NCBI RefSeq assembly: GCF_003315205.1
Contig: NZ_QNRR01000001.1
Location: 186,001 to 250,000, forward strand
DNA length: 64,000 nucleotides
Direction of reading: 5' to 3'
From: Roseimicrobium gellanilyticum
GTDB lineage: Bacteria > Verrucomicrobiota > Verrucomicrobiia > Verrucomicrobiales > Verrucomicrobiaceae
The position numbers and the translations under genes were made by a program. The stretch's first letter is position 1, and each line of letters starts with the position of its first letter. Positions 49,358 through 52,501 of this stretch are shown here, in pieces. The notes under the pieces were generated by a model. It saw only the letters and a program-made list of their open reading frames with translations. It was not told the DNA's origin and made no database searches.

Positions 49358-50203
49358 TCAGGATTTTGGCTCCTCATTCCTCAGTGGCAAGACCCAGATG
49401 TTCCGATAGCGCACGGGGTTCAGGTGGTCCTGCAGGCTGATTTGTCCTTCCATGGTGCGGGTGTCGAGCTCCACCTTGTCATGCACGACCACGCCATTGT
49501 GCTTCACCGTGATGCGGGCTTTGCGCACGACCTTGCCATTTTCTACCTTGGCGCGCTCGGCGATGATGTCATAGCTCTGCCACTCGCCGGGTTTCCTGGA
49601 GGCATTCACGGTGGGAGGATAGTGACCGTACAGAGAAGCCGCCTGACCGTCCGCGTACGTTTCGTTTTGATAGGAATCCAGCACCTGAACTTCCGGGTAG
49701 CCACCGAGGTACACGCCGCTGTTCCCACGGCCCTGCCCGTTGCCGACCACTTCCGCTGGGGTGGCCCACTCGATGTGCAAGTGAACGTCTCCCTTGATGG
49801 TGTCCTTCGATTTCAGTGAACCGGAGCGTCCCACGATTTCCATGTAGCCATCCTGAAGCTTCCACTTGGGTTCCGCGCTTTGGTCCGGAGAATCTTTTCG
49901 CGGCGAACTGCTCCATTTGGAAAGGTCCTTGCCGCCAAAAAGCACCAGGGCCCCTGCGGGTGCAGGCACCGGTTGACCGTCGTACTTGGGCTCTACCACT
50001 GGCGGCTTTGGCCGCGTCATGCTGTGCACCTCCCACTTGCCATCCGGGGTCATGCGCTTTTCTTTTTTCTCCTGCGGCTTCTTCTCCTCCTTCGTGGCCG
50101 GGGTGGGAGACTGTGCGAAAGCGTTTCCCAGCAGAAGTCCTGAGCACGCGATGCCCATGATGCTGGCCTGAAAGTGAAATGCCGAAGCTGCGAACCTGTT
50201 CAT
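49358..50203 (-). CDS. DUF1080 (3-keto-disaccharide hydrolase-like) exported protein
   Basis: 281 residues with an N-terminal signal (ASIMGIACSGLLLGNAFAQS). A Lys/Glu-rich linker precedes a concanavalin-like DUF1080 domain: GALVLFGGKDLSKWSS, then GDVHLHIEWATPAE, GRGNSGVYLGGYPEVQVLDS and the closing EGQISLQDHLNPVRYRNIWV. This family includes 3-keto-disaccharide hydrolases and is frequent beside sulfatases and oxidoreductases in PVC bacteria. It lies directly upstream of the sulfatase in the same operon, so a common substrate is likely. Enzymatic activity is inferred. Confidence 0.85.
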   Translation of the reverse strand: MNRFAASAFHFQASIMGIACSGLLLGNAFAQSPTPATKEEKKPQEKKEKRMTPDGKWEVHSMTRPKPPVVEPKYDGQPVPAPAGALVLFGGKDLSKWSSSPRKDSPDQSAEPKWKLQDGYMEIVGRSGSLKSKDTIKGDVHLHIEWATPAEVVGNGQGRGNSGVYLGGYPEVQVLDSYQNETYADGQAASLYGHYPPTVNASRKPGEWQSYDIIAERAKVENGKVVRKARITVKHNGVVVHDKVELDTRTMEGQISLQDHLNPVRYRNIWVLPLRNEEPKS

Positions 50204-50239: not shown

Positions 50240-51364
50240 TCACGGACCTGCCTTCTCGAACCGTACGGAGAAGACTGGAGGCAGTTCCGCGCTGAGGCGC
50301 GTCCAGGACTCGCCGCCGTCCTCGCTGAGCCATACCGAACCAGTGGTGGAGCCCATGGCGAGTGTGCGTCCATCCGGAGTCACATCAAGGCAATGGCGGT
50401 AGATGAGGTGATAGGCATGCTCCTGTGGCAGTCCCTTGCGCAGCGGTTCGAAGGTCTTGCCATCATCTTGCGTGCGCATCACGCACAGGGCGCCATTTAC
50501 GGGCACACGCATGTCATCCTTCACACCGGGAACGAACCATGCCGTCTCCGGCTTCTGCGGATGCACAGCCACGGCGAAGCCGAAGACAGCGGGGTTCCCA
50601 TTTTCAAAACGCTGCCAGGTGCGTCCACCATCCTTGGAGCGGAAGATGCCGCAGTGATGCTGCATCCACACGGTGTCCGGATCAGACACGCAGGCATCGA
50701 TGCGGTGAGGATCCTGCCCATCCAGATCCTCCTCCTCGCCCGGAGGCATGAAGTCCGCGAAGAGACCCTTGCCATAGCGGTCCCAGGTTTCGCCACCATC
50801 GAGCGTCTCCCACACGCCGCCGCAGGAGATGGCGAGCACCACTCGCTTGCTGTTGCGTGGGTCCACGCAGATGGAATGAATGCCCGGCCAGTCGTAGCCA
50901 CCGCCAAACCACTTCGCGCGCTCGGGCCGGTTCCACAAGCTCTCCACGAGATTCCAGGTGGCGCCACCGTCGGTGGACTTGAAGAGGCCGCCGGGAATGG
51001 TCCCACACCATAATACACCCGGTTCATCCGCGCCGCCCGCTTCCAGCGACCAGATCTTTTCCAGATTCCACGGGATGGGCGTCTGGCGCATGGGACAGAG
51101 AATGTCCGGTGTTCCTTCAGGCTTGGATGGATAGGCGGGGCAGGCGCGTTCTTCCCACGTGGCGCCGCCATCGGAGGACACATGCATTTTGGTGCCGAAG
51201 TGGCCGTGCTCCACCGCGGCGTACAGCTTATTGTCACGGGCATCCGGCAGCAGCATGGGAACTTGCACGCCGAGGAAGGAACTGCGGGCCACGCGCCAGC
51301 CACTCCCATTCTTCTCGATGGCGAAGTGTCCTTTGCGTGTGCCGAGGTGAAGCGTTGTGCTCAT
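50240..51364 (-). CDS. Asp-box (BNR/sialidase-like) beta-propeller protein
   Basis: 374 residues, no signal peptide. Five Asp-box repeats are visible: SSDGGATWEE, STDGGATWNL, TLDGGETWDR, SKDGGRTWQR and SEDGGESWTR, marking a sialidase-type propeller. The catalytic Arg triad and Tyr of true sialidases are not evident, so it is more likely a non-catalytic WD40/YVTN-like propeller. It follows the MoaD-like gene by 18 bp on the same strand. From memory this pairing recurs in actinobacteria and acidobacteria, which suggests that the two proteins work together; function unknown. Confidence 0.82.
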   Translation of the reverse strand: MSTTLHLGTRKGHFAIEKNGSGWRVARSSFLGVQVPMLLPDARDNKLYAAVEHGHFGTKMHVSSDGGATWEERACPAYPSKPEGTPDILCPMRQTPIPWNLEKIWSLEAGGADEPGVLWCGTIPGGLFKSTDGGATWNLVESLWNRPERAKWFGGGYDWPGIHSICVDPRNSKRVVLAISCGGVWETLDGGETWDRYGKGLFADFMPPGEEEDLDGQDPHRIDACVSDPDTVWMQHHCGIFRSKDGGRTWQRFENGNPAVFGFAVAVHPQKPETAWFVPGVKDDMRVPVNGALCVMRTQDDGKTFEPLRKGLPQEHAYHLIYRHCLDVTPDGRTLAMGSTTGSVWLSEDGGESWTRLSAELPPVFSVRFEKAGP

Positions 51365-51382
51365 GATATTGGCTGGGGGAAT

Positions 51383-51652
51383 TCAACCGCCCGAGAGAGC
51401 TTGCATGATGAAAATTTCCGAGTCTGCCCTCACGGCATCGGAGAGTGTCCGGCGATCCTTCACGGCCGTGCCATCCACGAATACCACCACGTGATGCCGT
51501 ACGGCGCCTTGATCATCCAGCACATAACTGCGCAACCCCGGTTGCTTTGCGAAAACGGCTTGCAGAGATTCTCCCACGGTAGAGCCCTCCACCCGGCATG
51601 CTTCCGCCGAGGTCTGACGTGCGAGATTCGGAGTGAACTCCACGAGGGGCAT
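51383..51652 (-). CDS. MoaD/ThiS-family sulfur-carrier or ubiquitin-like protein
   Basis: 89 residues from ATG 51652 (MPLVEFTPNLARQTSAEACR). The ubiquitin-like fold ends in IMQALSGG, so the di-Gly C-terminus needed for adenylation and thiocarboxylate formation is intact. Members carry sulfur for molybdopterin or thiazole synthesis, or modify proteins. No moaE, thiF/moeB or other cofactor genes are adjacent, so its activating enzyme must be elsewhere. The gene is paired with the Asp-box propeller, and follows the PPTase gene by 72 bp. Confidence 0.85.
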   Translation of the reverse strand: MPLVEFTPNLARQTSAEACRVEGSTVGESLQAVFAKQPGLRSYVLDDQGAVRHHVVVFVDGTAVKDRRTLSDAVRADSEIFIMQALSGG

Positions 51653-51724: not shown

Positions 51725-52501
51725 CTAGGCCCTTGCTATCATCTGCAGAGGTGGTTCCGCATTGCGATCGCCTGCGAGTGGCACGAACCATCGTGGCGTG
51801 ACAGAGGCTGGTGTGCCGCCACTTTTGCGTGTGACCAGCGCCACATGATGCTCTGGCTGCGCTTGCATGAGATGAAATTCCCAATCGCGTGGCTTGTCTT
51901 CCACCTCCGCAGGGCATCCGAAGTGAATCGAGGAGCCATTGACGAAGAAATTCAGCTTTTCCACGGGCAAGTTGAGCCCCAGTCCACGTGCTTTGGTGAA
52001 TGCCTCCTTCAGCGTCCAGAGCGAGAGGAATTGCTTCCGTTGCATTGCCGATGATGTCGATTGAAAGCGTGCCAGCTCCGCTGGGGACATGATGCGTGGC
52101 GCCAGGATGGCCGTGTCGAGCTTTCGACTTTCTGCCTCCGTATCGACCCCAATGTCTGCGGATGACGTGATGGCGCAGACCGCGAGCCCGTGTGTGTGGG
52201 AAAGGCTGAAGCGCAGATCGTGGATGCCATTTTCCGGCACCACTTCGGGACGTCCATAGGCATTGGATCTGAAGACCCATGCTACGGGAGGGACCTCTGC
52301 AGATGTGAAATCAGACAGAGCTGTCCGCACCAGGGCGTGTGAGATCAGAAACAGCCGGGCGTCCCGCTCGAACCTGAAGCGCGCGTGGCGGGTTTTCTCT
52401 TCGTCATCCAGCAGGTCATGACAGCGCGCCAGATGATCGGCATCGGTGACCCAATGGGGACGGCACAGGTACAGGTGAATGCGATCGCCGCTCTCGCTCA
52501 T
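51725..52501 (-). CDS. 4'-phosphopantetheinyl transferase (Sfp type)
   Basis: 258 residues. Sfp-family motifs are clear: RFSLSHTHGLAVCAI, the Mg-binding GVDTEAE, and WTLKEAFTKARGLGL (WxxKEA). The enzyme transfers phosphopantetheine from CoA to carrier proteins of fatty-acid, polyketide or peptide synthases in the cytoplasm. No carrier protein or synthase gene is in the window, so it may serve the whole cell. Its ATG overlaps the stop of the upstream exported protein (ATGA). Length is slightly above the usual 220-240. Confidence 0.9.
   Translation of the reverse strand: MSESGDRIHLYLCRPHWVTDADHLARCHDLLDDEEKTRHARFRFERDARLFLISHALVRTALSDFTSAEVPPVAWVFRSNAYGRPEVVPENGIHDLRFSLSHTHGLAVCAITSSADIGVDTEAESRKLDTAILAPRIMSPAELARFQSTSSAMQRKQFLSLWTLKEAFTKARGLGLNLPVEKLNFFVNGSSIHFGCPAEVEDKPRDWEFHLMQAQPEHHVALVTRKSGGTPASVTPRWFVPLAGDRNAEPPLQMIARA

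Follow-up and report, generated by a model that had tools for sequence, protein, structure and literature searches.

Dedicated sulfur carriers mark the pathways to thiamine, molybdopterin, cysteine and thiosugars, and to our knowledge a protein with the propeller fold has never been seen as the partner of such a carrier. In MoaX of M. tuberculosis the carrier and its partner enzyme are joined in a MoaD-MoaE fusion, which according to the available part of the report is cut between Gly82 and Ser83. The same text describes the cut as required for activity, the protein being inactive when the cut is blocked (PMC4326299). Activation can moreover be shared between systems: MoeZR is presented, in the accessible portion of PMC3227635, as one E1 enzyme that sulfurates both MoaD and CysO.

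The analyzed window (64,000 nucleotides; C1:186001-250000 of its genome) holds on its minus strand a gene for a carrier of this kind, which precedes a gene for a beta-propeller. The first-pass annotation had proposed a pair formed by a ubiquitin-like protein with a di-Gly end and a propeller, and both open frames were recovered with the ends it had given. The carrier is a beta-grasp protein of the MoaD/ThiS/CysO type (51383..51652, minus strand; 89 aa from an ATG start; open frame, Pfam and model), which ends in MQALSGG with its C-terminal Gly-Gly at 51386..51391. The propeller gene (50240..51364, minus strand) specifies 374 aa, likewise from an ATG start, and its product is assigned by open frame, Pfam and model as a seven-bladed Asp-box beta-propeller. 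The gap between the two is 51365..51382, and the spacing of 18 bp was thus correctly given. A phosphopantetheinyl transferase gene (51725-52501) lies upstream of the carrier in the same direction, and a gene of the 3-keto-disaccharide hydrolase family (49358-50203) starts 36 bp downstream of the propeller.

The carrier is a member of the ThiS/MoaD/CysO beta-grasp superfamily. It matches Pfam ThiS with 27.5 bits (cut-off 22.5), whereas its best curated match, the NCBIfam family SAMP1 (NF041918), stays at 49 bits below the cut-off of 60. The AlphaFold2 model (pLDDT 92.6; 32-row alignment) has the predicted beta-grasp fold, and SAMP1 (3po0) is its closest neighbour in a fold search (TM 0.82), followed by CysO, a Thermus MoaD-related protein, the BexX-bound CysO and then MoaD. 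The fold matches include 3dwg and 4n6e, and matches to the CysO type were also found by sequence. Gly-Gly is present in all of the 161 carriers collected, fusions included (100/100 aligned and 61/61 further), a figure to be read with the fact that the carrier profiles used for detection themselves include Gly-Gly; in some of these proteins it precedes a tail or a propeller rather than a stop codon.

The propeller scores above the cut-offs of both Pfam BNR/Asp-box (46.5 bits, cut-off 27) and Pfam Sortilin-Vps10 (56.1 bits, cut-off 33). That it carries Asp-boxes was rightly noted earlier, yet the count of five was too low: the pattern [ST]x[DN]xGx[ST][WF] occurs six times, starting at residues 63, 130, 187, 243, 298 and 347, five times with Trp and once with Phe. 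According to the model (pLDDT 93.6, pTM 0.92; 39-row alignment) the protein would form a single seven-bladed propeller, the first strand of which is predicted to begin at residue 4 and should therefore leave no space for a signal peptide. The nearest solved structure is 3b7f (Z 48.8, rmsd 1.8 over 350), which shares 29-31% identity and is found by profile search with E 9.3e-79. By pattern, model and fold search, the repeats and the fold are those of an Asp-box beta-propeller. Thiocyanate dehydrogenase also appeared in the fold search (Z 24) and was left unused, since it has, as far as could be judged, the propeller shape alone in common. A role as defence system was dismissed as well: neither protein matched any family of PADLOC-DB at E 0.01, and a search of 50,697 phage records gave no propeller match at E 1e-5.

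The first-pass annotation placed the same pair in other phyla too and named a lack of conservation as grounds for refutation; a survey of gene neighbourhoods shows that the pairing is conserved. With the propeller of the window as seed, one genome per species was scanned and 41 loci were chosen by their likeness to this seed; their titles place them in the Verrucomicrobiota, Myxococcota, Acidobacteriota, Actinomycetota, Planctomycetota and Pseudomonadota. A carrier with the motif QAL[ST]GG lies just upstream on the same strand in 41/41 loci. Among these, L031 and L032 are duplicates of each other from a single assembly, and L017 has an in-frame stop near the start of the carrier. Gly-Gly forms the C-terminal end in 38/41 carriers, and the three others, all acidobacterial, extend 9 to 11 residues beyond it. 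The gap between the genes, measured in 38/41 loci, has a median of 6.5 bp (range -4 to 259), six loci having an overlap of -4. Clustering of all frames in the 41 loci revealed no third gene that different genera conserve at a constant position. The remaining clusters in common either belonged to a single lineage or represented shadow frames of the two genes, except for a widespread cluster of short-chain dehydrogenases at varying places in seven of the loci.

A similar association was found in PLSDB (72,556 records), where any match to the carrier of the window is confined to ten records, and these are the ten that rank highest for the propeller (52-54% identity, query coverage of at least 98%); the genes are side by side in 10/10. 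Six further records (H11-H16; propellers of 31-37% identity, at least 97% covered) had no match to the carrier, for which the query was the single sequence of the window and would miss distant carriers. Among 387 genomes of the Verrucomicrobiota, the full form of the propeller (>570 bits) occurs in five, and it is in the same five that a high-scoring carrier (>100 bits, the next being 54) is found, side by side with the propeller.

For a wider survey, profile searches were performed on these 387 genomes and on 198 of the Actinomycetota, 299 of the Pseudomonadota and 199 of the Acidobacteriota. Propeller places above 150 bits were kept and weaker matches excluded, which yielded 153 places (10, 57, 15 and 71 in Verrucomicrobiota, Actinomycetota, Pseudomonadota and Acidobacteriota, respectively). 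All of them were read together with approximately 1.5 kb of flanking DNA either way, or less near contig ends, and a carrier was sought by profile. In 133/153 places a carrier was found on the same strand at a distance of no more than 1 kb, with 9/10, 46/57, 13/15 and 65/71 in the four phyla in the same order. The carrier is upstream in 54 of the 133, downstream in 70 and fused to the propeller in one open frame in 9; in L144 and L148 it lies 0.8-0.9 kb away, and in the remaining 131 it is within about 170 bp or fused. The carrier profile also overturned an earlier impression that the distant propellers (30-37% identity) are unpaired, as most of them proved to be paired.

A tree of 120 propellers, rooted at midpoint, separates clade I (65 rows, support 100, including the window) from clade II (55 rows), and 68 places that were read later were assigned to clade II by score (<290 bits). 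In clade I the pairing is complete (30/30) and the carrier is always upstream, whereas in clade II 103/123 places are paired, with the carrier upstream in 24, downstream in 70 and fused in 9. The pair has thus outlasted changes in gene order, which argues that a function is retained and not a neighbourhood inherited by descent. The carrier profile found no carrier within about 1.5 kb of 20/153 propellers. Seven of the 20 form a clade from actinomycetes with large genomes (7.1-9.9 Mb), and at two places (L195, L221) little flank was left. Since carrier-less propellers belong to the set that keeps the residues described below, an adjacent carrier is not always required.

Within one genus of the phylum of the window, genome G289 has the pair, whereas G223 and G310, which share part of its flank, lack a propeller match (E 0.018 at best over 7 kb) and retain only a decayed carrier. 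The latter two are 94% alike over 7 kb and therefore count as one event. Decayed carrier genes without a propeller were seen in two near-identical genomes at L065:3381-3593 and L066:3356-3565, beside a flank common to the intact relative. A P. aeruginosa plasmid record holds the pair (L080:11711-13107) inside a stretch that looks chromosomal by its gene order from pagP to PmpM, judged against the order that we take to be that of the P. aeruginosa chromosome. The species thus probably carries the pair on its chromosome, and from this gene order and the PAO1 numbering the two genes are presumably PA1355 and PA1356. PLSDB records label such propellers as exo-alpha-sialidase, sialidase family protein or hypothetical protein. 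PA1356 is said, in the part of PMC11538994 that was available, to promote adhesion and biofilm, a role that we suspect was derived from the sialidase name.

The nine fusions are single open frames in which no stop separates the carrier from the propeller. Eight come from the Actinomycetota sample (L089, L092, L093, L095, L099, L107, L109 and L163), and L145 from the Acidobacteriota is the sole one outside it. Pfam ThiS scored over its cut-off in 7/7 fusions scanned, which also have Asp-box or Vps10-type repeats, and start codons were checked for seven. Gly-Gly is retained in 9/9, while linker length and letters vary. In the tree the fused rows are scattered among split ones, which takes four changes, but a topology with all fusions in one clade is not rejected (p-AU 0.135), and the retention of Gly-Gly may therefore reflect few events. 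In 8/10 split relatives of the same subclade, one to three residues follow Gly-Gly. A motif TA(C/G)ACT, which resembles a -10 box, was noticed 7 to 10 bases before the start of L093, L095, L099, L107 and L109; this is the position expected for leaderless transcripts and, if they are such, the fused start would be the true start. The clade I acidobacterial carriers L016, L018, L023 and L128 have 7 to 11 residues beyond Gly-Gly, and these would need trimming too. Another acidobacterial carrier, located downstream of its propeller (L150:1068-1334, minus strand), has no stop after Gly-Gly and reads into RDDIRNIAIIAHVDHGKTT, which resembles the start of a TypA/BipA-type GTPase, so that in-frame fusions after Gly-Gly would be of two kinds.

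Over 186 propellers of both clades, eight polar positions are near-invariant. More specifically (all coordinates on the minus strand), K11 in the first top-face loop, within TRKG (51332..51334), is Lys in 185/186; H163 (50876..50878) and S180 (50825..50827) are His and Ser, respectively, in 185/186; H220 (50705..50707) and R323 (50396..50398) are kept in 186/186, as are Q235 and H237 of the triplet Q235-H236-H237 (50654..50662), of which position 236 is variable. Position 218 (50711..50713; Asp in the window) is solely Cys (117) or Asp (69) in the alignment; clade I and a few further propellers have Asp there, and most of clade II has Cys. All eight positions are placed by strand order at the top ends of strands or in top loops, where the order was taken from the model, with strand D3 assigned by hand. 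In addition, invariant positions in clade I are more frequent in the top loops (B-C and D-A; 36/138) than in the bottom loops (A-B and C-D; 6/77), with a Fisher p of 0.001 that is a guide only, the rows being related. The available text of PMC2716378 describes the top face as the functional face of Asp-box propellers and usually as the variable one, which makes its conservation here noteworthy. We infer from the model that the eight residues may form one pocket, and the set of three His plus Cys/Asp218 suggests a putative metal site.

The module itself contains no E1, rhodanese or cysteine desulfurase gene, and a MoaE partner is absent from the locus of the pair, the propeller being the only neighbour conserved across genera. 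As had been noted, there are no cofactor genes nearby, in so far as the families sought are concerned: all other ThiS-family, MoaE and ThiF matches of the genome are outside the window. The genome has one full-length E1 (ThiF; C1:759295-760005, E 9.9e-83), a MoaE match on C6, with the pair on C1, and at least two other ThiS-family carriers elsewhere (L072, ending in PPVQGG, and L073, ending in ITAGG), the counts being lower bounds as the genome-wide Pfam ThiS search missed the carrier of the window (27.5 bits when scored directly). As one E1 can serve several carriers, a module without an E1 gene raises no objection. A ThiF match was found in 11/12 other genomes with a clade I pair and not in G397 (locus L040), and in 30/30 actinomycete genomes tested, although in pieces in G536 and G515. 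JAMM-protease matches were likewise found in 30/30 sampled actinomycete genomes. The presence of both in all of these genomes shows just that the machinery is at hand. In 12/30 actinomycete genomes, including 6/7 of the fused ones tested, a JAMM and an E1 match are separated by about 200 bp or less.

Two features of a carrier with a dedicated acceptor are seen here, the conserved pair (133/153) and the fusions that keep Gly-Gly (9/9). We consider a conserved two-gene chemistry, in which sulfur is handed to a molecule, the most likely role of the pair, and give about even odds (a probability of roughly 0.5) to a module of carrier and dedicated acceptor enzyme in which the propeller would be the acceptor and sulfur would be transferred at its top face. 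A shared E1 of the MoeB/MoeZ-type, a ThiF protein encoded elsewhere, would adenylate the Gly-Gly end and convert it to a thiocarboxylate. On docking, the carrier would bring its tail to the conserved top face of the propeller. There K11/R323 and the His-Gln-Ser cluster would hold the substrate that receives the sulfur, and a metal might be bound by H163/H220/H237 and D/C218. In tailed or fused carriers a protease would have to cut after Gly-Gly first, as for MoaX. A bolder version is conceivable but doubtful: a widespread class of metallo-propeller synthases, present in six or more phyla, in which H163/H220/H237 and Cys-or-Asp218 would bind a mononuclear metal and the thiocarboxylate would build a new sulfur metabolite or cofactor, and which some lineages would make as a polyprotein cut after Gly-Gly.

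Several other explanations start from the same pair, and since the acceptor reading, conjugation and a mere complex all share it, only chemistry can separate them. Protein conjugation, although unlikely in our view, deserves most attention among them: the carrier could be a SAMP1-like modifier and the propeller its main target, a ligase-like adaptor or a remover, with K11 as a possible acceptor lysine. SAMP1 is indeed the best match of the carrier both among curated families and by fold, K11 is Lys in all but one of the propellers, and JAMM-type proteases are at hand in the sampled actinomycetes. Nevertheless, the SAMP1 score is under its cut-off, and JAMM is weakened as specific support by its presence in all 30 genomes, all of which come from a propeller-bearing sample. 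Moreover, a single invariant Lys amid invariant His, Gln and Arg looks more like a pocket than like a tagging site, and a mere target would not require such conservation of one face. The top-face residues, the dedicated pair and the fusions with Gly-Gly are together a better fit for an acceptor enzyme than for a passive target.

We regard it as quite improbable that the two proteins form a non-covalent complex, in which the carrier would be a structural or regulatory subunit that is never activated and the Gly-Gly tail would plug into the propeller. This would agree with the fusions, where Gly-Gly is not a free end unless cut, and with the occurrence of carriers with tails beyond it. However, by strand order the N-terminus of the propeller is on the bottom face and the conserved residues are on the top, so that in L109 and L163, where Gly-Gly precedes the first strand by some five residues, an uncut Gly-Gly is unlikely to extend as far as the top of the propeller in the same chain, and the presence of Gly-Gly in every carrier is what activation by E1 requires.

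Far less probable is that the propeller is a sialidase or another glycosidase and the pairing incidental. The Asp-box repeats, the public name exo-alpha-sialidase and the GH74 enzymes as nearest larger enzymes by fold would speak for it. Sialidases have a catalytic set formed by an arginine triad, a Tyr/Glu pair and an Asp. The curated cut-offs are not reached, neither that of Pfam BNR_2 (27.7 bits, cut-off 31.4) nor that of the NCBIfam F510_1955 glycosylhydrolase (78.8, cut-off 175), and they leave the sialidase name unsupported for the propeller of the window. The strand predicted at residue 4 leaves no room for a signal peptide, and the domain count is wrong for GH74, the tandem of two seven-bladed propellers (a GH74 trait in the text available from PMC2716378) being absent from these 374 aa, which hold one.

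Least of all do we expect that the carrier serves the usual molybdopterin or thiamine pathway and is next to a propeller gene by coincidence, because ThiS-family membership and a full-length E1 in the genome, which would suit it, are outweighed by the separate MoaD-like, ThiS-like and MoaE genes elsewhere (L072 and L073 among them), by the retention of the pair in 133/153 places and by the decayed carrier in G223 and G310, where the propeller match is missing and the relative G289 has the pair, so that ordinary molybdopterin synthesis, which the first-pass annotation had considered as refuting its proposal, is unlikely to be the job of this carrier.

A description of the carrier-propeller pair was not found in the open-access literature to the extent that it was available, which does not prove that none exists. 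The terms propeller, sialidase, BNR and neuraminidase do not occur in the available text of two studies on the genomics of prokaryotic ubiquitin-like proteins (PMC1779556, PMC2948915). A conserved carrier with a propeller-fold partner is present in diverse bacteria, under the database name exo-alpha-sialidase. If the sulfur reading is true, both the sulfur chemistry and its product would be new, and carrier processing can be tested directly on the fusions, in which Gly-Gly is conserved. If the pair serves conjugation instead, bacteria would have a ubiquitin-like system tied to a propeller as its fixed partner, an equally surprising outcome.

The comparison with known systems can be made for both proteins. 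The GH74 xyloglucanases are seven-bladed Asp-box propellers too (Z about 28), and have two of these in tandem (PMC2716378, as far as available) versus one here. Closer is 3b7f (Reut_B4987 of Ralstonia eutropha JMP134), which belongs to the same propeller family (about 30% identity) and has counterparts of K11, H163, S180, D218, H220, Q235, H237 and R323 in a profile alignment; its function is listed as 'Not known' in the accessible part of PMC2716378.

With respect to the carrier, SAMP1 of Haloferax volcanii is nearest in curated family and fold, although the carrier scores under the cut-off of that family. We know of no pairing of SAMP1 with a propeller. The CysO-CysM-Mec and BexX/CysO (PDB 4n6e) systems have a CysO-type carrier in common with the present one, judged by fold and sequence matches, whereas the acceptor is CysM or BexX there and would be the propeller here. 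The folds of CysM and BexX differ from that of a propeller, and frame clustering revealed no cysM- or mec-like conserved neighbour in the 41 loci. The CysO system shares its E1, according to the available part of PMC3227635, and a JAMM-type protease is present in the sampled actinomycete genomes. MoaD-MoaE and MoaX provide the nearest likeness in organization, as they also consist of a small dedicated Gly-Gly carrier that adjoins or is fused to its partner enzyme, with the seven-bladed propeller here in place of MoaE. The MoaE fold is unlike a seven-bladed propeller. In MoaX, Gly-Gly lies inside the fusion, which is cut after it according to the text at hand (PMC4326299), and in the propeller fusions Gly-Gly is also retained and a corresponding cleavage is predicted.
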